Source of the DNA: Henckelia pumila
Taxonomy: Eukaryota; Streptophyta; Magnoliopsida; Lamiales; Gesneriaceae
Assembly (NCBI RefSeq): GCF_033568475.1
Contig: NC_133121.1
Span: 4,526,001-4,590,000, forward strand
Length of the DNA stretch: 64,000 bases
Reading direction: 5' to 3'
Positions 4,151-62,704 of the stretch are shown here, in pieces; position 1 is the first letter of the stretch; each line of letters starts with the position of its first letter. Position numbers and translations under genes: made by a program. The notes below the pieces were generated by a model. It was given only the letters and a program-made list of their open reading frames with translations, had not been told where the DNA came from and searched no databases.

Positions 4151-7100
4151 TCAAGATCTTCGCCTGCTGGCTGAACCTCCTTGTTGGATTTGACCTGAAT
4201 GACGAGCATCTGGATGTACATTATTCGATCCCCTACCTCTGTCTACCTGCTCTCTTCCGCCAGCTGCCTTACTCGTAGAACTTTTGGATCTTGAAGCACT
4301 ATATTTCCTCGATTTATCCACTTCATCTGGCAGCGGATGCAGCCCTTGCAGATCAGGTTCAGGGACATAATCGGCGGGCCATTTAGTTCTATCCATTTTC
4401 CTAAAGGTAATTGATATCCTGGCAGAACAAATAAGATTTAGCATGGTTGAAAAAAAGTGATAACAGAAAAAATATATGTTTAAAGAATGGTACCTTTTTG
4501 AGGGAACTGCAGGCACAGAGTGTTTAGCCACATCAGCCCCATTTCCATTGAGAACAAGAACAGACCTAGAGAGGTTTGAAACAGCTGATCAGTTAAGGAC
4601 AAAAACCAAACACATTTGTTTATATAAAATAAAGGCTTACCCGACTGGTAGGGGAATAGAAAATGAACCAGCAAACTCGCCAGCACCAACTATTTTCAAG
4701 TTTGATCCGAATACTATTTTACACTCACTGAGAAACGAAACTGTACAAAATGGTCTGACAAAATCATGATTATCAATATGAGGTGGTATGCAGTCTCCTT
4801 CATCATAAATATTGACGATACAGCTGTCAGGAACACAAGACGGAGGTAGAACATGCCACCTAACAAGCCTTTTTATCATAACCTTGAACAGATGAGGTAA
4901 AGGATCTACAATTTCATTCCTGAGGATGCCTGGTGGATTACCAACTTTATCCTGTCACCAGCAGAGTTAAGTGAGGGCTGATAAAGTTGTCTTATGGGAG
5001 ACTAAAAATATTTCTACGGCCAAAGCAACAAGAAACTTACAGTGGCATAATTGTAACAGCAACCAAATTGGAGTGTTACACGTCCCTTTCCCCGCATCCA
5101 CTTACGAGGCTCAGAATATGTGCGATCTGAAAATAGAAAGGAGAAAGCAGAACAAATTCGTTATAACTTTGAAAATATTGCATATAACTCCTAGGGTTGG
5201 GTCCACAACAAAAAAAGAAAAATAATTGAAAAGAAAAGAAAAGAAAAGAAAAAGAAAAAGAAAAAACAATTAAGTGCAGAATTGCATAACTTAATATACC
5301 AGTGTCCTAATCAATAAGATCCATGTAATACTTTAACAAATGAACAGATTTGGTTGACTAAGCCAACATAAGACTGGAAAAGAAATTTTATCAATATCCA
5401 TTGGTTCAAATTGTGCCATCACCCTCCTGTCCATATTTATTATCCTCTTTGATGGCAATGACAACAAAGTTCAAGAAAATATATTCACAAATTCCATGTC
5501 GCAATACTAGCCTCAAAACAATCGATAAGATTCACATACCATTGATAACTTTAACTTTCAAAAGGAAAAAACTAGGTTAGACTCATCACCATGAATAGAG
5601 AAAGCATCAGACATAACATGGAAAACTCCGTTTACGAAATTAGAAATAAAAAAAGGGACAGTAAAGGAATAACAAGTACACGATATTAACGAGTAAAAAT
5701 CTGAATCAAGTAATTAACCTCATAAAGGAAAATTCACAACCAGATTTAACTCTTGAAGTTGAAAATTCAGTTTCAGCCATTAAAAACGACCTATTGTATT
5801 ATTTTTAGTTGTTACCAAGAAGTTTAGTGTAGGCACATTGTTTTATAATACCAAGTCATTGCAATATTTATCATCTCAATAACCAAATGCGAACAAATAT
5901 TTAATTTTTAGTTTTCAGCTTTGAATAGCATCAGAATTGGTTTCATCTTGGTATTTTTTTCTGTTTAATACCAAAACTGAACAAAGGCTTCATATGAAAT
6001 GAAACGAAATTAAAAGAAATTACACATGGAATTGCAAATACACATTTCAGCAATCCAAATTCGCCATTTTGAGCCATTCCAGTTTGGTTCGATTTTTATA
6101 ACATTCGAACAAAGGTTTCATGTGAAATGAAATAAAAAAAATTATCACATGAAATTGGAAATACAAATTTCAGCAATCCAAATTCGCCATTTTGAGCCCT
6201 CTCAATTACATCCTTCCATCTAGGGCATTCAAGTACGGTTTGGTTCGATTTTTACAGAAGTTCGAAAAAAGGCTTCATCATTTATCACATGGAATTGCAA
6301 ACACAAATTTTAGCAATCCAAATTCGCAATTTTGAGCCATCTCAGATGCATTCTTTCATCTAGGGTGGTCAAGTACGGTTTGGACCGTATGGTTCGACTT
6401 TTACAACATACGAACAAAGGCCTCATTATTTAGCACATGGAATCGCAAATACGAATTTCAATAATCCAAATTCGCCATTTTGAGCCCTCAATTATATCCT
6501 TCCATCTAGGGGTGTTCGTATAAGGTCTGGTTCGGTATTATAAGTATTCGAACCAAGACTTCTTATGAAATGAAAAAAGTGAAGTAAAAGAAATTATCAG
6601 ATGGAGATGCAACTACAAATTTCAGGAATCCACATTCGCCATTCTGAACCCTCCCAATTACATCCTTCCATTTAGGGGTGTTCAAGCATAGTTTGCTTCT
6701 ATTCATATAAAAGTTCGAACAAAAGCTTCTTACGAAATGAAAAAAAAAATAGAATTATTAATAACCAAACTAAGATTATGATTTGGTTCGATCATTTCGA
6801 AAATGATCTCAAATTCAATGACTTAATTATTGTTAAAAATGTCTAATCTGTCTAATCTAATCTATCTAATTATTATCATAATTATAAATATACAAATATC
6901 AACATATATACAAAAATATAAAGCATTGTAAAACATTACAAGTTTAACATAAAAAATATAAATATTCAAAATCAGTTACTTTACTTTCAAAAAACTCCAC
7001 TAACACATTATAGTTCAATTTATTTAAAATTAACCAAAAAGGCAAAAACCAATTAAAACCATGCGGCTAGGTTTGATTTATCAGTTTCTGAACATCCCTG

Positions 7101-28690: not shown

Positions 28691-28747
28691 TGCAGAAGTC
28701 TCACAACGTTGGCTAGTACTAGAATGCAACTTTGTTGTAGCTTATCC

Positions 28748-28871
28748 TGTCAGCAAAGGTGGCTCAATATTGGTCAAAGATGGTGGGTGGTTTGAATGAA
28801 GGAAACGTGCATGTTTTTTTCATTCAAACCACCCACCATCTTTGACCAATATTGAGCCACCTTTGCTGACA
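28748..28871. repeat. Palindrome of the Copia LTR start
   Basis: The first about 50 bp of the LTR (28748-28799) is followed, after about 20 bp, by its reverse complement (28821-28871). This is the junction where the plus-strand LTR meets the inverted partial copy. Confidence 0.93.
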
Positions 28872-30961
28872 GTCTCCCATTTGGAGATTTGATTGAGAAT
28901 CAAACACATCTCCACATATCCTTTCAAACTTGTCATTCCTGCTGCTTACGTTTCTGCTGGGCCACTTGAGGATCTACACCACTCAAACTTATCTGTGTTC
29001 ACTGGCTTGGTCAGAAAATCAGATATGTTATCCTTCGTATGGATCTTCAGCATGTCCACACTTCCTTCCTCTACTAATTCTCGTACAAAATGATATTGAA
29101 CTCCAATGTGTTTAGTCCTGGAATGAAAGGCTGGATTCCTTGCAATGTGCAAGGCACTCTGACTGTCACAAAACAGAGGAATCTTTTCTTGTTTGTGCTC
29201 AAGCTCCTCCAATAACCTTTTAATCCATATTGCCTCCTTGCAAGCTTAAACTATGGAAATTGAAGAATAAATAGACACCAAGATTTACGTGGAAAACCCC
29301 TAAAAATATTATTAGGGTAAAAACCACGGGCAAGACCAATAGATTTCACTGTAATATTTGGAGAATTACAAACTCTCTCTGTGTTTCCAAAGAGACACAC
29401 ACTCTCTTAATACAGGAGAAAACCTATCTCATAAATATATAAAAATAACCAAGGAGAAAGAAGAAACTCAAGTTCGGATGATTTGCTTCCAAGGAGAAAG
29501 AAGAAACTCAAGTTCGGATGATTTGCTTGAGAATGGGATGCAGAGAATGCTGAGGAAATAGCTCAATTTATAGAGCTAATCCCTCGGTGTGAACCTGCAA
29601 AGCAAATCAATTTTTAATTTGCTTTGCTACATTTGCTACACGTTTTTTCTTCATTCAACTTGTTGTCATTTGCCAACTAATCTATTTGACTTTTCAAATC
29701 TCAATTCAATGCCAATTGCCGACATTTCTCCCACTTGGAGAATTGATTGAGAATCAAACACATCTCCACACATTCTTTCAATCTTGTCATTCCTGATGCT
29801 TACATTTCTGCTAGAACACATGAGGATCTAAACCACTCGAACTTCTCCGTGTTCACTGGCTTGGTCAGAATATCAGCTATGTTATCCTTCGTATGGATCT
29901 TCTTCATATCCACACTTCCTTCCTCTACTACTTCTCGTACAAAGTGAAATTGAACTCCAATGTGTTTAGTCCTGGAATGAAAGGCTGGATTCCTTGCAAT
30001 GTGCAAGCCACTCTGATTGTCCAAAAACAGAGAAATATTTTCTTGTTTGTGCCCAAGCTCCTCCAATAATCTTTTAATCCATATTGTCTCCTTGCAAGCT
30101 TGAGTAGCTGCCATGTATTCTGCCTCCGTGTAGATAACGCCACAACTGTTTGCAGTTTTGAAACCCAGCTGACTGCACCTCCTGCAACTGTAAATACATA
30201 ACCAGTAGTAGATTTTCTTTTATCTGGATAACCTGCGTAATCTGAATCCACAGAGCCCCTGACTGTAAAATCTAATCCTCCAAAACATAATGCAGCATCA
30301 CAGGTATCCTTAATCTACCTAAGGATCCTCTTAACCGTGCTCCAATGCTCTTGTCCAGGATTTTCCATATACCGACTGACTGCTCCCACTGCTTGTGCAA
30401 TGTCTGGTCTTGTACAAATCATGGTGAACATTAAACTTCCCACTGCTGATGCATACGGTACTCGAGACATCTCCATCCTCTCTGCTTCACTGCTAGGACA
30501 CATCTCAGAAGATAACTTGAAGTTAATATGAAGAGGGGTTGAAACTGGCTTACTATCTTGCATGTTGAAGCGTTGCAAGACTTTCTTCAAATAATTTTTC
30601 TGAGAAAGCCAAATCTTTTTATTGCTTCTGTCTCGGTGAACTTGCATCCCTAGAATCTTGTTTGCTGGTCCCAAGTCCTTCATATCAAATTTCCTAGCCA
30701 ACTGTGCCTTCAATTCTTGGACCCGATCTTTGTTGGGGCCTACTACCAACATGTCGTCCACGTACAACAGCAAAATGATATAATCATCATCACCAGACCT
30801 CTTGAAATACGTACAAGGGTCTGCACTGAGTCTGTTGTACCCAAGGCTCATAATATAGGAATCAAATCTCTTGTACCAATAATTTTTAATTTGCTTTGCT
30901 ACATTTGCTAACCACTCTATTTGACTTTTCAAACCTCAATTCAATGCCAATTGCCGACATT
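28821..30961 (-). mobile_element. Inverted partial Copia copies inside the fossil
   Basis: Minus-strand order of parts read along the window: start of an LTR with the pol 3' end (28821-29247), a nearly whole LTR (about 29250-29725), RNase H and reverse transcriptase (about 29727-30883), and the start of another LTR (about 30884-30961). Sequence is closely related to the plus-strand element. It is broken in several places. Both inverted segments lie within the single TATCC duplication, so they were not separate TSD-flanked insertions as far as I can see. Confidence 0.85.
29449..29528. repeat. 40-bp tandem pair inside the inverted LTR
   Basis: A 40-bp unit starting CCAAGGAGAAAG occurs twice in a row (29449 and 29489) with no mismatch that I can see. 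Confidence 0.9.
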
Positions 30962-31020
30962 TCAATTTTCATAGTTTCTATCTCGTAATGCCGCACTTGG
31001 GACTAACAAGTGGTATCAAA
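30962..31020 (+). other. Plus-strand LTR end and primer-binding site
   Basis: The end of the plus-strand LTR (ending GGGACTAACA) is followed by TGGTATCAAAGCC, close to the initiator-Met tRNA complement used by most plant Copia elements. Confidence 0.8.
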
Positions 31021-34000
31021 GCCTTGGCATAAAATTTCTTAAAATTCTGAGTATGCTATGTGGTTGCAGCTTTGACTGATCTTCCACATCAGAAAAGATT
31101 TTTTGAAGATTTTATAAGGCAGGATTCTTGTAGTCAATATGACGGCAAAATACAAGATAGAAAAGTTCAACGGGAGCAATTTTTTGCTGTGAAAATTGAA
31201 GGTGCAAGCAATTCTAACAAAGGAGCGTTGCTTGGAAGCTATTGGAGATAGACCGACGGATGTCACGGACGATCAAAAGTGGAACGAGATGAATCACAAT
31301 GTTGTTGCCAATTTGCACTTGGCTATAGCGGATGAAGTTTTGTCAAGTATCTCTGAAATAAAAAGCGTAAAAGTTAATTGGGATACTCTGACAAAATTGT
31401 ACGAGGTCAAGTCACTACACAACAAAATTTTCCTAAAGAGAAAGCTTTATACTCTTCGGATGGCTGAATCCTCATCGATGACCGACCATATCAATACACT
31501 GAATACTCTATTTTCCCGGCTCACGTATATAGGGCATAAAATAGAGGAAAAAGAACGTGCGGAGCTTTTTCTTTAGAGTCTACCAGATTCATGCGATCAG
31601 CTCATCATCAATGTTACCAATAATGTTCTTTTGGATAATTTAAATTTTGACGATGTCTTAACTGCGGTTCTTGGAGAAGAGAGTCGTCGAAGGAACAAGG
31701 AAGATAGGTTGACAACATCGAAGCAAGCAGAGGCTTTACCGATGACGAGAGGAAGATTGACGGAGCGTGACTCCAGTGGGAGCCACAGATATGGTAGATC
31801 CAAGTCAAGAAGTAAGAAGAAGAATATTTACTGCTTTAAATATGGCGGTAAATGGCACTTCAAGAGAGAGTGTACGAAGAGCATCGAGAAGGGATCTCAA
31901 GGAAATGTGGCCAGTACTTCATAAAGTGGTGAAATACTATTCAGCGAAGCAGCAACAGTTGCAGAAGGCAGACACAAATTTTATGATGCATGGATTATGG
32001 ATTCAGGAGCGACATGACACATGACGTCAAGGAGAGAATGGTTCGATCATTATGAACCAGTCTCAGGAGGATCTGTATTCATGGAAAATGATCATGTCTT
32101 GGAAATCGCTGGGGTCGGTACCATCAAAATCAAAATGTTTGATGCCACTATTCGCACCATACAGGAGGTACGACATGTGAAGGGCCTGACAAAAAATCTT
32201 TTGTCTTTGGGGCAATTGGATGATATTGGGTACAAAACCCGTATCGAAAAAGAGATCATGAAGATTGTGAAAGGCGCGCTTGTGGTTATGAAGGCGGAAA
32301 AGATTGCTGCAAATCTGTATGTATTGTTGGGGAAAACACACAAAGAGACGGAACTAGCTGTTGCATCAATTGGTTCGTGGGAAGAATCTACAGTGTTGTG
32401 GCATAGAAAGCTTGGGCATATGTCAGAACGAGGAATGAAGATTCTCTCAGAACCGAAGCTGTTGCCGGGGCTTACAAAAGTGACTCTACCCTTTTGTGAG
32501 CATTGTGTTACCAGTAAACAACACAGATTAAAGTTTGGCTCATCTACTGCCAAAAGCAAAGGCATATTGGAGCTGATTCATTCTGATGTTTGGCAAGCAC
32601 CGGTGCTATCCCTATGAGGAGCAAGATATTTTGTCTCGTTTATTGATGATTTCTCTAGGAGATGTTGGGTGTATACAATCAAGAAGAAGTCAGATGTTTT
32701 CGAAGTCTTCAAAGTTTTCAAAGCGCAGGTTGAACTTGATTCTGATAAGAAAATCAAGTGTTTGAGGACTGACAATGGAGGAGAATATACCAGTGATGAA
32801 TTTGATGCATTCTGTCAGCATGAGGGCATCAAAAGATAGTTCACGACGGCTTACACGCCTCAACAGAATGGAGTGGCAGAGCGGATGAACAAAACTTTGT
32901 TGGACAGAACAAGGGCCATGTTGAGTACTGCAGGTCTACCAAAGTCATTTTGGGCAGAAGCAGTCAAAACCGCTTTTTATATCATCAATCGTTCTCCTTC
33001 AGTGGCGATTGATTTGAAGACTCCAATGGATGTGTGGACTGGCAAGCCAGCTGATTATTCTCGGTTACATACATTTGGAAGTCCGGTGTACGTGTTGTAC
33101 AATGAACAAGAAAGATCAAAGTTGGATTCCAAATCCAGAAAGTGCATCTTCTTGGGCTATGCTGATGGAGTAAAGGGGCTTCGCTTATGGGATCCTACTG
33201 TCCACAAGCTTATCATCAGCAGAGATGTTATCTTCGAGGAAGATAAAGTGAAGGGAGACAAAGGCACACTGAATTCAGAAACTACTATCATTCAGGTGGA
33301 AAATAAGACAGACGAAGATCAAGTTTCTTATGAAGCAGTACCAGAGCACGAGGAACAAGAACCAGTTGAGTCAGAGGTTTCCAAAGTGAGGCAGTCAACT
33401 CGAGAGAGAAGACCACCAGGTTGGCTTTCAGATTATGTCACTGAAAGAAACATTGCATATTGTCTATTAACAGAAGATGGTGAGCCATCGAGTTTCCATG
33501 AGGCTACTCAAAGCTCGGATGTATCCCTGTGGATGACAGCGATGCAGGAAGAATCGAAAGCATTGGACAGAAACAAAACTTGGGATCTTGTTACACTACC
33601 ACGAGGGAGGAAAGCTATCCGTAACAGATGGGTCTATAAGATCAAGCGTGATGGTAATAACCAAGTGGAGCGGTATCGTGCGAGATTGGTTGTCAAAGGG
33701 TATGCTCAGAAAGAAGGTATTGACTTCAATGAGATATTTTCTCATGTGGTTCGACTTTCAACAGTCAGAGTAGTGTTGGAATTGTGTGCGGTGTTTGACC
33801 TACATCTGGAACAGCTAGATGTGAAAATAGCATTTCTTCATGGCGATCTTGAAGAAGAAATCTATATGCTCCAGCCAGAAGGTTTTGCAGAAAAAGGCAA
33901 AGAGAACTTGGTTTGCAGGTTGAATAAATCTCTGTACGGTCTCAAACAGGCGCCGAGGTGTTGGTACAAGAGATTTGATTCCTATATCATGAGCCTTGGG

Positions 34001-35041
34001 TACAACAGACTCAGTGCAGTCCCTTGTACGTATTTCAAGAGGTCTGGTGATGATGATTATATCATTTTGCTGTTGTACGTGGACGACATGTTGGTAGCAG
34101 GCCCCAACAAAGATCGGGTCCAAGAATTGAAGGCACAGTTGGCTAGGAAATTTGATATGAAGGACTTGGGACCAGCAAACAAGATTCTAGGGATGAAAGT
34201 TCACCGAGACATAAACAATAGGAAGATTTGGCTTTCCCAGAAAAATTATTTGAAGAAAGTCTTGCAGCACTTCAACATGCAAGATAGTAAGCCAGTTTCA
34301 ACCCCTCTTCCTATTAACTTCAAGTTATCTTTTGAGATGTGTCCTAGCAGTGAAGCAGAGAAGATGGAGATGTCTCGAGTACCGTATGCATCAGCAGTGG
34401 GAAGTTTAATGTTCGCCATGATTTGTACAAAACCAGACATTGCACAAGCAGTGGGAGAAGTCAGTCGGTATATGGCGAATCCTGGACAAAAGCATTGGAG
34501 CACGGTTAAGAGGATCTTTAGATATATTAAGGGTACCTCGAATGTTGCATTATGTTTTGGAGGATCAGATTTTACACTCAGGGGCTATGTGGATTCAGAT
34601 TACGCAGGTGATCCAGATACAAGAAAATCTACTACTGGTTATGTGTTTACAGTTGGAGGAGGTGCAGTCAGCTGGGTTTCAAAACTGCAAACAGTTGTGG
34701 CGTTATCTACAACGGAAGCAGAATACATGACAGCTACTCAAGCTTGCAAGGAGGCAATATGGATTAAAAGGTTATTGGAGGAGCTTGAGCACAAACAAGA
34801 AAAGATTCCCCTGTTTTGTGATAGTCAGAGTGCCTTGCACATTGCAAGAAATCCAGCCTTTCATTTCAGGACTAAACACATTGGAGTTCAATATCATTTT
34901 GTACGATAAGTAGTAGAGGAAGGAAGTGTGGACATGCTGAAGATCCATACGAACGATAACATATCTGATTTTCTGACCAAGCCAGTGAACACAGATAAGT
35001 TTGAGTGGTGTAGATCCTCAAGTGGCCTAGCAGAAACGTAA

Positions 35042-37912
35042 TGTGGGGACCCGGGTCGCTAATCTCATCATAGGGAAATTAACGATTAATAAACAATTAA
35101 TCGAACAATAAAAAAATATTCAAACCAAGAGCTAAATTTTTATTTTTTTTTAAAAAATCTTAGCACCTCGCTCGATCGGGTAAACTCACCCGATCGAGCG
35201 AGCAAGAAAATCCTGCTCTCGGGTCTGAATTCATATTGGCCTCGCTCGATCGGTGTAAATCATCCGATCGAGCTAGCCCAAAAACTCACTTCTCTGCTTT
35301 GGAAAATCACAGGCCGCGCTCGATCGGTGGAGTTCACCCGATCGAGCGGGCACTCTGTCCAGAAAAATAAAATGAATCTTGTTGTACAATGTGATTCCAA
35401 AACTTATACAACTTTCATATAAATTTCTAAACATGCTTCTAGCTAATTAACATGCATTCAAACTAATATCAAGTGATCTAGAATACATGAACTCTCAAGT
35501 ATAAATCAATACTTGACAAAAACAACCTATACAAAGGTTCTTGCTTTCTAACATGTTTATCAAATCATAATTACATGTTATCTGCTTAAAACCCGAATCA
35601 CCACATGCTATCTCTCTTCTCAAGCTATCCAAGCCAACTCTAGCTTGATCTTGCCCCAACCTGATGCAATGCACACATACAAACAAAGCAACAGCCGGAT
35701 AACTCCGGTGAGAATAAATCTCAGTATGAATAACATGTATATACATCATTTAAGCATATAACTCATTCATATCATGAACGTTACATAATAACATAACATG
35801 CTAGCATTTACAAACTCATATTCTAAACCATATAAATCTCTAGGTTAATGCATAAATGCAATGCATGTGCCAAGGAATAGGCTATCAAATCTGATATCAA
35901 TAAATCGTAGTTCTGGGATCCCGAGGAAATAAAATCTTCAACAAACACCAACTCACCCAATCGAGGTGAAGTTGAATACTTCATTTTCTCTGACTTTGGT
36001 GCAACTATAGTGAGTCTTCTGGCTTTGGAAGTAAGTCTACATTCCGTGCCACTCAACTACAGCCCTCCAAACGTCATATGCACTCTAGGCCTTTCAACCC
36101 TCTGTGCTTTACTGGCTGGAGTTCAAGATGAATGCAATATGTTCTGTATGCATTAACTGCTATAAAACACCTTGAACACATCAATCATATAATTATATGA
36201 ACATATAATCACTCAACGATACCGACAAATCTGTAAGTATCACATGTAATACATAAAACATGTTCAATACAGAAAATACTATAAATCAAATCAGACAAAT
36301 AAACATTTACATAAATATTCTGCGACTTCAAGAAAATAGCTATCTTGAATAATCTATCCCATTTATGTAAACGTAAACCATAACATATATGAAAACATGC
36401 ATGTATGTGATTTTAGGCAACTCGATAATCAAAAACAAACTCGAGTTATTCTGCCCATCTTATTAATGTCTATTCATACCTTTCATCGCGATTCAAACAT
36501 CTTGAATCTGTTGCCAATGCTGATCATCTCAAAGCTAGCCAAATCAGTCATACAATTCTACTCATTTCAATCAATGCTACTTGAAGGTATTTATGATTCA
36601 ACTTCAAATACTTCAAGTCATTCGAACTCGAACTCGTCGATTCAACTTCGATAATCTTAAATTCAAATCTGAAATATATTATAACATATCTAAACATCAA
36701 TTTCCAATCTGAATCGATGATTATTTAGAGCTTATTCTGTTCAAATCTTGCTAAGACAATCAGAATTCAAACCGACGTCGCAACTATTCGAGTCCGATAA
36801 GTCTTTCGATTCAAATATCATCATATCTACATTCTCAACATAATCTCATATTAAATTCATTCACAATAAACTTGAAGATGAGCTCTAGATATGTAGAATG
36901 CATATCAATTCAAAATCTTGAACCGGCGGCGTAACGGTACGATTTCGGTCTTTCTAAAAGCATAACATCAATCTTACTACTCATCTCAACTCAAAAGCAA
37001 CACAATTCATCAACACAATTTCGAAATCATCAGCCCTAAAAATTCAGAATTATGAAAAATCTTTCAAAAATCGAAAACATGTTCAAACGACGATCTTTTC
37101 TCGATCCATCTTAGATATGCTATCGTCGTACATGCTAGAACACGTTTATACAATCAAATCTTAATTCTAACAACATCATAGAATTAAAACATGGTAGAAC
37201 TTCATAAAACTTACGTCAAAACGAAGTACTAAGAGCTGTGATCGCAAATATACGATCAATCGGAAATTCTACCGGGCGGATCAAAAGTTATTGGAGATTG
37301 AACGGAAGAAAATGGACTTGGAAAGTTTCTTCTCCATTCTCACAGTGTAATCTGATCTTGGGAAGCTGAATCATCTGATATTTCAACACACTACACGTAT
37401 ATACATATCAAGTTGCAAGAAAATTGTACTTTAGTCCCTGAACTTTGGCCTAATTGCAAATTAGACCCCGGACAAGTGATTTAATTCAATTTTAATACTA
37501 AATAATTTAAGAATAATAGAATTTAATTCTAAACTCTAAATATTCTCAAATTAAATATTTTCGGATTAAAATTAAATCATTTCAGACCTTATCGCATTTT
37601 AGTCCTTGAATTGCTCAATATTTGCAAATGGGTCCTTTCTCGGATTTCATCCTCAAATTCAATCTTTGATATTTATCATCTTGGAATTCACATCTTAAAT
37701 TCCATAAATATCAATTCAAATATTTTTAATCTTTTAATTTAAGAATTCCGGATATTAAAATCTTAAAATCCGAAAAATCCTCAAATTAAATATTTCTGAC
37801 CCGAAATTGAAATCTTCAATTTCCATAAATTCTTTAATTCATCTTTTCTATTTTATTCGGAATTTAAATCTTAAATCCCGTAATTAAGAACTTAATATTT
37901 TCGGGCCTTACA
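35042..37912. mobile_element. Solo LTR, long, nested in the Copia fossil
   Basis: Starts TGTGGGGACCC and ends GGGCCTTACA, flanked by a perfect 5-bp duplication CGTAA (35037-35041 and 37913-37917). The Copia sequence continues uninterrupted across the two sides. There is no coding sequence in the 2,871 bp. TG...CA ends and a 5-bp duplication fit an LTR; the length and wording suggest a Ty3/Gypsy family, which is inference. A small non-coding derivative (LARD-like) is the alternative, but I see no second pair of repeats inside. Confidence 0.85.
35165..35352. repeat. Three CGATCGG hairpins in the solo LTR
   Basis: Three successive imperfect palindromes of the form GCTCGATCGG-(about 9 nt)-CCGATCGAGC occur at about 35170, 35245 and 35315, spaced about 75 bp apart. 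They are GC-rich in an AT-rich LTR, so each could form a stable hairpin. Confidence 0.9.
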
Positions 37913-37991
37913 CGTAAGCAGCAGGAATGGCAAGTTTGAAAGGATGTGTGGAGATGTGTTTGATTCTCAATCAAATCTCCAAGTGGGAGAA

Positions 37992-38458
37992 TGTCAGCAA
38001 AGGTGGCTCAATATTGGTCAAAGATGGTGGGTGGTTTGAATGAAGAAAACGTGCATGTTTTTCATTTGGTCAATCATGTGCAGCTGAAGGAAATTCATTA
38101 TGAATTTCCTGGCCTTCACGCGTTCACAACCCAGGGGGAGCTCTATAAATAGAGCTCTCCTCCAGCATTCTATATATCCCATCTCGAGTTCAATCATCTA
38201 AGCTTGAGTTTCTTCATCTCCCTTATTTATTTCTATATATATTTGTGAGATATGTTTTCTTCTGTATTAAGAGAGTGAGTGTCTCTTTGGAAACACAGAG
38301 AGAGGTTGTAATTCTCCAAATATTATAGTGGAATCTTTTGGTCTTGCCCGTGGTTTTTACCCTAATAATTTTTGGGGGTTTTCCACGTAAATCTTGGTGT
38401 CTATTTATTCTTCAATTTCCATAGTTTTTATCCCGTGATGCTATACCTGGGACCAACA
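37992..38458 (+). repeat. 3' LTR of the Copia fossil
   Basis: 467 bp from TGTCAGCAAAGG to GGGACCAACA. Preceded by the purine-rich 'caagtgggagaa' (polypurine-tract position) and followed by the TATCC duplication. Carries a 'ctctataaatagagct' TATA region near 38140, a plausible old promoter. Confidence 0.9.
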
Positions 38459-38463
38459 TATCC

Positions 38464-55311: not shown

Positions 55312-55995
55312 GGGAGTATTTTCAAAAGATTATGATTTTGTAAAAATAATTAATGGAGTGTTTGCAATCACTAAAAAAAGTGATTGTTAGCTTTTAGCTT
55401 AAAAAAATCATTTTTGTGTGTTTTTTAAACCTAGATTATGTGTTAGCTTATGCTTAACTTAATTGAAATCCAAAAGCTAGTCATGTGATAATTATGATTC
55501 TCCAAAAGTGATTTTAATAAGAAGGTCATTGTTAAAATCATTCTAATCACTTGTTTATCAAATACTACCAAACTTTAATTTTTAGATTTCCACATTTGTT
55601 TCCAAACACTACCAACTTTTGATTTTTCTTAACTTTTTTATAATCTATAAATTAATCACTTCCACAAAAACAAAATCTACTGCAAACACTCCCTAAATTT
55701 ATAGATTATAAAAAAGTTAATAAAAATCAAAAGTTGAAAGTGTTTGGAAATAAATGTGAAAATCTAAAAATCAGAGTTGAGTATTGTTTGATAAATAAGT
55801 GATTAGAGTAATTTTAATATTAATTTTTTATTAGAATCACTTTTGGAGAATCATAATCAACATATGACTAGCTTTTGGATTTCAATTAAATTAAGATAAG
55901 CTAACACATAATTTGGATTTAAAAAACACACAAAAGTGATTTTTTTAAGCCAAAATCTAACAATCACTTTTTTTATAGTGATTACAAGCACTCCC
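55312..55995. mobile_element. Foldback MITE in the LINE relic
   Basis: Two arms of about 300 bp (about 55357-55665 and 55697-55995) are imperfect reverse complements, roughly 85-90% alike by eye, with a short loop at about 55665-55697. Ends are GGGAG ... CTCCC. The flanking CTA (55309-55311) and TTA (55996-55998) are near-identical 3-bp repeats, as for PIF/Harbinger MITEs (TWA target). It contains no gene. Internal 'gcaaacactcc' repeats suggest it arose by head-to-head doubling of a smaller element. Confidence 0.85.
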
Positions 55996-56498
55996 TTAGA
56001 GGCGATAAAAGAGGGCTTGAGGTTAGCACAACTCATAGGTCTACCGATTCACGAAACATCAACAAATTCGCTCTTAACGGTGCAAGCAGTCACTAGATTT
56101 GAGACGGACTTCCGTTATAATGGTTCTATGGCCGCAGAAGTAAGACATTTAGGAAAACCGAAATTTTCATTCTTTGTTGGTAAAGCTTGTATCGAAAGAT
56201 TTGAATTTGGTTTAATAATATATCACGTATTACCATTAAAAAAAAGTCTTTTGTACGATATCGAATCTAAATTTGTAATATGTGATACGGATTCATTGAT
56301 CTATATTTATAATAAAAATAATAATATTTTCAAAGATAAGGCGGTAAGTTTTTGCATTTACATCTCAAAAATTGTATATCCTACCCGAATTCAGTTCCGA
56401 TTCCAAATCCATCCCGCTTATAGCTTGACTTGCACGCACTATTTACTAGATTCGCGGGCACGCACCGAAACATTACTCAAAAACACACACACCGGAAA

Positions 56499-61310: not shown

Positions 61311-61320
61311 TTAAATAATG

Positions 61321-62652
61321 AGTTATTTGCACTAAACATCTTTGTAAAATATTGAAAATGCACACTTATCTCATGTGAAATTTTAATAGTCATCTTCAAC
61401 TCTAACCTTTTATAAAATTAGTACACGTCGTCCCTTCATATGAGCGATTGTTGCGCACAAGCCCCTCATGCGACTGAGTCAATATTTTGATTTTTTTCAC
61501 CAAATACCCCTGTGAAATATTAAAATTACATATTTGACCCCTTGAGAGTATAATTTTTAAATTTATTCAACCCATAAGATCCAATTATAAAATATTTGTC
61601 AAACATTTACATTTTATGATTTTTTATTTTTATTTTAAATTTATTATTATTTATTAATTTATTTCTAAAAAAATATTATTACTTTTTCTTGATATCATTA
61701 TTATATTAAAACACTCTGTGTTTCCAATTTCTCCATTAAACATGCATTCATAAACAAAGATTTAAATACTTAAACGTACCAAAATATTGAATAAACATGA
61801 TAAACTCAAGCATATTACTTTTTCAATTTAAGACTATATATGTTTGAACTAAATCTAAATTTTTCGAAAATATGTATTGCACAATTTGCAGTAAATAATA
61901 AAAAAATAAAGTGGTTATATAATGATAAAATTTACTATTAAAATATATTTTTTGTATAACTAATACTAAGATAAAATAACTAATATTTTCATAGCTATTT
62001 TTATTTAATTAAATATAAAATTAATAGTAAATTTTATCATTATACAATTATTTTATTTTTTTATTATTTATTGCAAATTGTGCAATGCATCTTTTCAAAA
62101 ATTTAGATTTTGGTTCAATACTATATAGTCCTAAATCGAAAAAGTAATATGCTTGAACTTATTATTTTAATTTGTTTAATATTTTGGTACTTTTACGTAT
62201 TTAAATCTTTGTTTATGAATGCATATTTAATGAAAAATTTGGAAGCACGAAGTAAGTTTAATAAAATAATGATATCAAAATAGAGTAATAATATTTTTTT
62301 AGAAACAAATTAATCAATAATAATAAATTTAAAATGAAAATAAAATAAAAATTCATAAAATGTAAATGTTTAATAAATATTTTATAATTGTATCTTATGG
62401 ATTGAAAATATTTAAAAATTATACTTTCAATGAGTCAAATATGCAATTTTAATATTTTACAGGTGTATTTGGTGTAAAAAAAATCAAAATATTTGTCCAA
62501 TCGCATGAGGGGCGCGTGTGCAACAATCGCTCATATAAAGGGCACGTGTGCTAATTTTATAAAAGGTCAGGGTTGAAAATGCTTATTAAAATTTAATATG
62601 AGAGAAGTGTGAATTTTTTATATTTCACAGGGGTATTTGGTGCAAATAACTC
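61321..62652. mobile_element. 1.33-kb foldback element, Mutator-like
   Basis: Almost the whole element is one inverted repeat: left arm about 61321-61960 pairs with right arm about 62015-62652, around an AT-rich centre. The ends GAGTTATTTGCAC ... GTGCAAATAACTC are perfectly inverted for 13 bp. A perfect 10-bp direct repeat TTTAAATAAT lies outside (61311-61320 and 62653-62662). Matched landmarks in both arms include 'gagcgattgttgc/gcaacaatcgctc', 'catgcattcataaacaaagattt' and 'tgcacaatttgca'. No gene is inside. The long terminal repeats, ends beginning with G and a 9-11 bp duplication fit a non-autonomous MULE. Confidence 0.93.
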
Positions 62653-62704
62653 TTTAAATAATATAAATTCAGATAATAATAAACTACAAACGGTTATTTA
62701 ATCA

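Follow-up and report, generated by a model that had tools for sequence, protein, structure and literature searches.

The window analysed here (G000:C2:4526001-4590000, a stretch of 64,000 nucleotides) carries a Ty1/Copia LTR retrotransposon, as identified by its order of Pfam domains (Retrotran_gag_2, Pol_BBD and gag_pre-integrs, SH3_retrovirus and RVT_2) and by TG...CA LTRs, a PBS, a PPT and a 5-bp target duplication (TSD). Base-level reading of the assembled sequence, together with self-comparison, showed a 2.1-kb block of inverted pieces in its 5' LTR. Between the left TATCC duplication (28743-28747) and the block, the start of the 5' LTR, of U3 subfamily A, runs on the forward strand from 28748 to a turn-round at about 28824. 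Beyond the block, the forward strand resumes with the U5 end of the 5' LTR (30964-31008), followed by the PBS, gag, integrase, RT and RNase H in normal order (31009-35041, domains from Pfam); this coding region is split into several stop-free stretches. The end of the internal region with the PPT (37913-37991) and a 3' LTR of U3 subfamily A in normal order (37992-38458) complete the element on the same strand, up to the right TATCC duplication (38459-38463).

The block itself is composed of three pieces, all on the reverse strand. P3, from about 28825 to 29247, holds the U3-A start, with its terminus at 28871, the PPT and the RNase H end of an A-type element. P1 begins with a subfamily B LTR from which the last ~33 bp are missing (29248-29724) and continues into a PPT, RNase H and a portion of RT (29725-30879). 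This second part is contiguous with its LTR-B, as in an ordinary 3' end, and P1 is colinear with such ends, query positions 504-2135 matching other copies at 85-91% (40 of 866 candidates scored). A single extra base at 30880 stands between P1 and P2 (30881-30963), which consists of a U3-B start (30881-30959) and 4 nt of PPT (TTTC). P1 has a 40-bp tandem duplication in its LTR-B and P2 a 37-bp deletion between short (7-bp) repeats, both absent from the two other B elements; copy-choice errors would give changes of this kind. Missing from the middle of the 5' LTR are ~345 bp, corresponding to LTR-A positions about 76-419. The inverted arms returned by self-comparison measure 751 nt (95% identity), 330 nt (90%) and 302 nt (97%), far above chance, and with the base-level reading they bear out the order of pieces proposed in an earlier, sequence-only reading of this DNA. 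Inverted LTR starts do lie at both sides of the block, as that reading had it, but they belong to different subfamilies, A on the left and B on the right. Setting aside the solo LTR described below, all of the rearrangement falls in the 5' LTR, after its U3 terminus and before the PBS.

The outer borders of the Copia element are those of a single clean insertion. Its flanks are themselves repeated elsewhere in the genome, and four related stretches of flank sequence (L066 to L069) were taken for comparison as empty sites. In L066, from the same genome, the joined flanks run uninterrupted at 77% identity over 493 bp, with TGTCC present once. L068 and L069, also from this genome and resembling copies of one another, are uninterrupted at 67% and 66% over 379 bp, with TATCC once. 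L067, unlike these three, has an interruption at the flank junction. The three uninterrupted sites, with TATCC or TGTCC once, thus support the borders, and the claim that one TATCC duplication bounds the whole structure holds.

A second insertion, overlooked in the claim of a single duplication without one, interrupts the Copia body near its end. It is a solo LTR of 2871 bp with TG...CA ends on the forward strand (35042-37912), read at base level and flanked by its own CGTAA duplication at 35037-35041 and 37913-37917. Its family is very common (3686 first-look candidates, 40 scored), and among the 40 scored, relatives are in several cases paired ~6.4-6.6 kb apart; the solo LTR is therefore an ordinary later insertion. 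The window holds other repeats as well. Two palindromes, at 61316-62656 and 55351-55998, have arms of about 660 bp and 320 bp that are ~84-85% alike. The first is a fold-back repeat of high copy number: 40 of its 898 first-look candidates were scored, and both arms were present in many. A ~275-bp unit occurs twice in tandem, at 99% identity, at 1097-1647, and a diverged tandem array with units 68-80% alike occupies 5979-6745.

At the turn-round, the stretch 28748-28824 and the next 47 bp form a palindrome with 62-bp arms, identical at 59 of 62 positions, and no spacer. A normal U3-A start reads TTCATT-TGG at this point, whereas here TTCATT-CAAACC is found, a copy of the opposite side of a hairpin stem with two extra T. 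We folded three normal U3-A starts as DNA (L037, L031 and the window's own 3' LTR), and the hairpin, with stem AATGAA/TTCATT, was present at the turn-round position in all three centroids. The stretches fold modestly better than shuffles (z -1.57, -2.54 and -1.62), and this hairpin is not the strongest of the LTR, ranking 42-47 among 432 windows. Two readings of the palindrome fit equally: a fold-back turning at 28824/28825 with two extra T, or a perfect mirror at 28809/28810 followed by three C-to-T changes, whose turn lies in the same hairpin.

The inner junctions carry little or no homology. None is seen at 29247/29248, one extra base is present at 30880, and P2 and U5 overlap by 3 bp (TTC, 30961-30963). 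The pentamer TTTCA stands at both block sides (28818-28822 and 30960-30964), so the earlier claim that no inner duplication exists is not literally correct. We do not take the pair as a signature of nesting, because on its left the block does not end in an LTR terminus, and its two flanks are ~345 bp apart in a normal LTR. Ordinary nesting would show an inner TSD, LTR termini at both inner borders and a contiguous target, and despite TTTCA this combination is not found.

The Copia body belongs to a large family (1439 first-look candidates, 40 scored). Among 40 candidates scored out of 483, U3-A occurs at nine other places at 82% identity or above, of which three may be duplicates of a single one. 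Three A-type copies at G000:C3:138125986-138163629 and G000:C97:15039-19773 share the same spacing and nearly equal scores, and look like a duplication plus an alternative contig. L010 and L025 are the two other elements in which U3-B was found, with 6 of 6 candidates scored in one search and 40 of 598 in another. The inverted material does not all have one source; its U3 types show at least two, subfamilies A and B. The direct body is a patchwork whose nearest relatives change from tile to tile, and an assignment of it to A or B ancestry was dropped for this variation. Across L002 to L030, bodies and R-U5 are closely alike and U3 is often very different, as if U3 types had been swapped.

Comparison with the B elements constrains the origin of P1. 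Its LTR differs from the 5' and 3' LTRs of L010 at 18 of 437 positions each, while those two LTRs differ from one another at 16 of 468; L025 is more distant from the P1 LTR than L010 is (45 of 436). Sites were counted as polarised where three outgroup LTRs agree, which held, with the P1 base present, for 10 of the 15 sites at which the L010 LTRs differ. P1 is ancestral at 9 of the 10 and has the derived base of the L010 3' LTR at 1. Because of the nine ancestral states, L010 is an unlikely donor of P1; their relation looks like that of sisters similar in age, unless P1 was copied while L010 was still very young. Two states (alignment columns 83 and 110) that the direct copy has in common with L038, an A copy, are missing from P3, and the templates of P3 and of the direct 3' part may therefore have been different A elements. 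One rare state (column 49) is common to P3 and the direct copy.

The two ends of the element also disagree in U5. Normal reverse transcription yields identical U5 in both LTRs. Here the U3 starts of the outer LTRs are identical at 70 of 71 positions, and 9 of 45 sites separate the 5' U5 from the 3' U5. Other elements showed 0-3 differences over 49 sites in 23 of 25 U5 pairs; of the exceptions, L004 scores 10 through a comparison shifted by a short deletion, with 2 differences towards the end, and the 3' end of L006 could not be used. When set against 58 tails, the 5' U5 is nearest to the A copy L038 (1 difference), followed by L037, also A, and others (2 differences). The nearest tail to the 3' U5 is L047 (4 differences), followed by at least nine tails at 5, L010 among them; on these distances the 3' U5 could not be assigned to B or L010. 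The two U5 ends are thus of different haplotypes, but of the nine differences about five, four of these in the 3' U5, resemble later single changes, and about four would remain as haplotype differences.

The inverted and direct parts resemble one another in private mutations. P1 has 14 in 1080 positions, the direct RT-RNase H 11 in 1081 and the direct body 37 in 2952, together at the high end of the range in other copies (0.19-1.30% in RT-RNase H of 29 copies, 0.14-1.25% in the body of 31 copies), which were the best matches to the window element and no random sample, so this range does not describe the whole family. Over the RNase H stretch, P3 and the direct copy each have 2 in 302. The loads are similar, and the very different ages that would have spoken against a common origin were not seen. 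Elements of types A and B with a comparable load show LTR divergences near 4% (L031, 20/465; L036/L037, 17/467; L010, 16/468). At a rate of 1.3 × 10^-8 substitutions per site and year, 4% divergence would be about 1.5 million years. The B copy L025 is young (LTRs 4/475 apart). Divergence is higher in the A copies L038/L039 (46/463) and L034/L035 (50/390), whose LTRs are 10-13% apart and which may be chimeric or further recombinant insertions.

The genome, 884.7 Mb in 133 contigs, was searched for the same block junctions, and they were not found elsewhere among the candidates scored (40 of 866, 40 of 300 and 6 of 6). With the junctions unique among these candidates, there is no sign of a propagating lineage in the assembly. 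An inverted RT-RNase H-PPT piece of at least 150 bp in the 1.5 kb before U5 occurred in 0 of 29 other copies. In most of these, the upstream 1.5 kb gave an ordinary LTR match to the copy's own 3' end; the exceptions were L014 (no match), L006 (only 188 bp), L011 (an internal deletion in the 5' LTR) and L029 (a divergent 5' LTR).

We propose that the cDNA was rearranged by template switching and fold-back during plus-strand synthesis, on A and B templates, before one integration, a reading to which we assign a probability of about 0.64. Both A and B RNAs would have been present in one virus-like particle. There the plus strand forming the left LTR would have started at the U3-A terminus and folded back at the natural hairpin ~75 nt in. 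The folded-back strand would then have copied plus-sense templates, first A (U3, PPT, RNase H), next B (LTR, PPT, RNase H, RT) and then B again, from U3 to PPT. From there it would have jumped to a minus strand within U5, with 45-48 nt of the LTR left, and completed synthesis through the PBS in the normal way, after which integrase would have inserted the rearranged product and generated the TATCC duplication. Such a detour would affect the left LTR only, because plus-strand strong-stop DNA becomes the left LTR and the right LTR keeps the first copy. It predicts what is observed, namely a correct U3 terminus, a correct U5-PBS, a normal right LTR and one TSD, and it allows a U5 from another minus strand. 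In its favour are the clean outer TSD with three related uninterrupted sites, the confinement to the 5' LTR, the mostly ancestral bases of P1, the similar private loads, the mismatched U5 ends, the hairpin at the turn-round, and the short homologies and copy-choice-like changes at and near the other junctions. The identity of the strand, the presence of the RNA templates in one particle and the order of the jumps are parts of the model that we infer; two co-packaged RNAs are suggested solely by the two U3 subfamilies. Points against the model include the one derived base in ten common to P1 and the L010 3' LTR, the need for a template longer than the strong-stop strand when copying past U3-A into RNase H, and the similarity of the junctions to those left by break repair with copied filler. 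The two states that P3 lacks, the later changes that seem to account for about five of the U5 differences, the modest folding of the U3 starts, the patchwork body and the selection of comparators by similarity weigh on the same side. Of the origins considered in the sequence-only reading, template switching before insertion is the best supported. Later inversion alone is excluded, as it removes no LTR-A positions about 76-419 and brings no B pieces. Self-integration would at most be a detail of the junction 30959/30960, at the U3-B terminus, where one extra mutation is needed.

The main rival, which we consider unlikely although it keeps about a quarter of the weight, is host break repair soon after a normal A-type insertion. 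A break in the 5' LTR would have been repaired with filler from other Copia copies, by synthesis with template switches, losing ~345 bp of LTR and gaining 2.1 kb. Junctions with 0-3 bp of homology or one extra base suit end joining with filler equally, and the outer TSD would be preserved; the rare state at column 49 and the derived base that P1 has in common with the L010 3' LTR also speak for it. The difficulty lies in the donors. No good donor of P1 or P3 exists among the copies examined, L025 being too distant and L010 having to be copied before almost all of its present LTR changes. The similar private loads of inverted and direct parts also weigh against filler, the different U5 haplotypes would oblige the filler to cover U5 as well, and restriction to the 5' LTR would be chance.

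An assembly error fusing reads of different Copia copies is improbable. Palindromes and repeats are difficult to assemble, but among the candidates scored (40 per search, out of several hundred or more) no other piece of the element of at least 150 bp was placed elsewhere at above ~98-99% identity that could have been misjoined, and P1, P3 and the direct parts each have private mutations. Slightly less probable still is that an inverted B element nested in an A element's 5' LTR, or one end of the cDNA integrated into itself, and that deletions came afterwards: the right inner border lies at most 4 nt from the U3-B terminus and TTTCA stands at both sides, but the left border is within U3-A at no LTR end, and the flanks are non-contiguous in a normal LTR. 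For the right border, the 4 nt of PPT and the TTC overlap suffice without any mutation where an integrase joint needs one, and several further deletions are required.

Template-switching complexes are known from grasses, where LTR elements, two of them Angela-like Copia, have an extra internal LTR within a single 5-bp TSD; the explanation given is that reverse transcription switched abnormally between two RNAs packaged together (Sabot and Schulman 2007, PMC1950507). The window element is like them in its extra internal LTR and single flanking TSD, TATCC, which the related unoccupied sites corroborate. It differs in that the two complete cores and three LTRs of those complexes all point the same way (PMC1950507), whereas here the extra pieces are inverted, partial and in the 5' LTR only: the internal LTR-B is inverted and nearly whole, and the second core is an inverted part of RT with RNase H. 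The outer LTRs of the grass complexes are highly similar; those of the window element agree closely in the U3 start (70 of 71) but less so in U5 (9 of 45 sites different). New Onsen copies are described as mosaics of family members, arising by high-frequency recombination through two co-packaged RNAs (Sanchez et al. 2017, PMC5668417). The present element is likewise a mosaic of family members, but Onsen recombination is presented as occurring between members without inversion, and the main text of that paper contains neither "inverted" nor "palindrom" (PMC5668417). Our element would thus work like the grass complexes and the Onsen recombinants, but it departs from them in orientation. In autointegration of retroviral and retrotransposon cDNA, the cDNA is rearranged before integration. 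The same is proposed here, but no integrase signature is seen at both inner borders.

Among titles and abstract openings, with subscription journals mostly outside this scope, the literature yielded no inverted mosaics confined to the 5' LTR. We tentatively suggest, at somewhat less than even odds, that the element records a distinct accident of LTR elements, in which plus-strand strong-stop DNA folds back at a U3 hairpin, takes a detour over several templates and so leaves an inverted mosaic in the 5' LTR only, still with an integration-competent end. If this is true, a single integration can bring in structures that would readily be taken for nested insertion with rearrangement, and many "odd" plant 5' LTRs would be expected to contain inverted PPT-U3 pieces with mismatched U5 ends. 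The signature, an inverted PPT-U3 in the 5' LTR, mismatched U5 and one TSD, would be simple enough to count in any genome, and the element would be a datable fossil of strand-level reverse-transcription errors in a plant retrotransposon.
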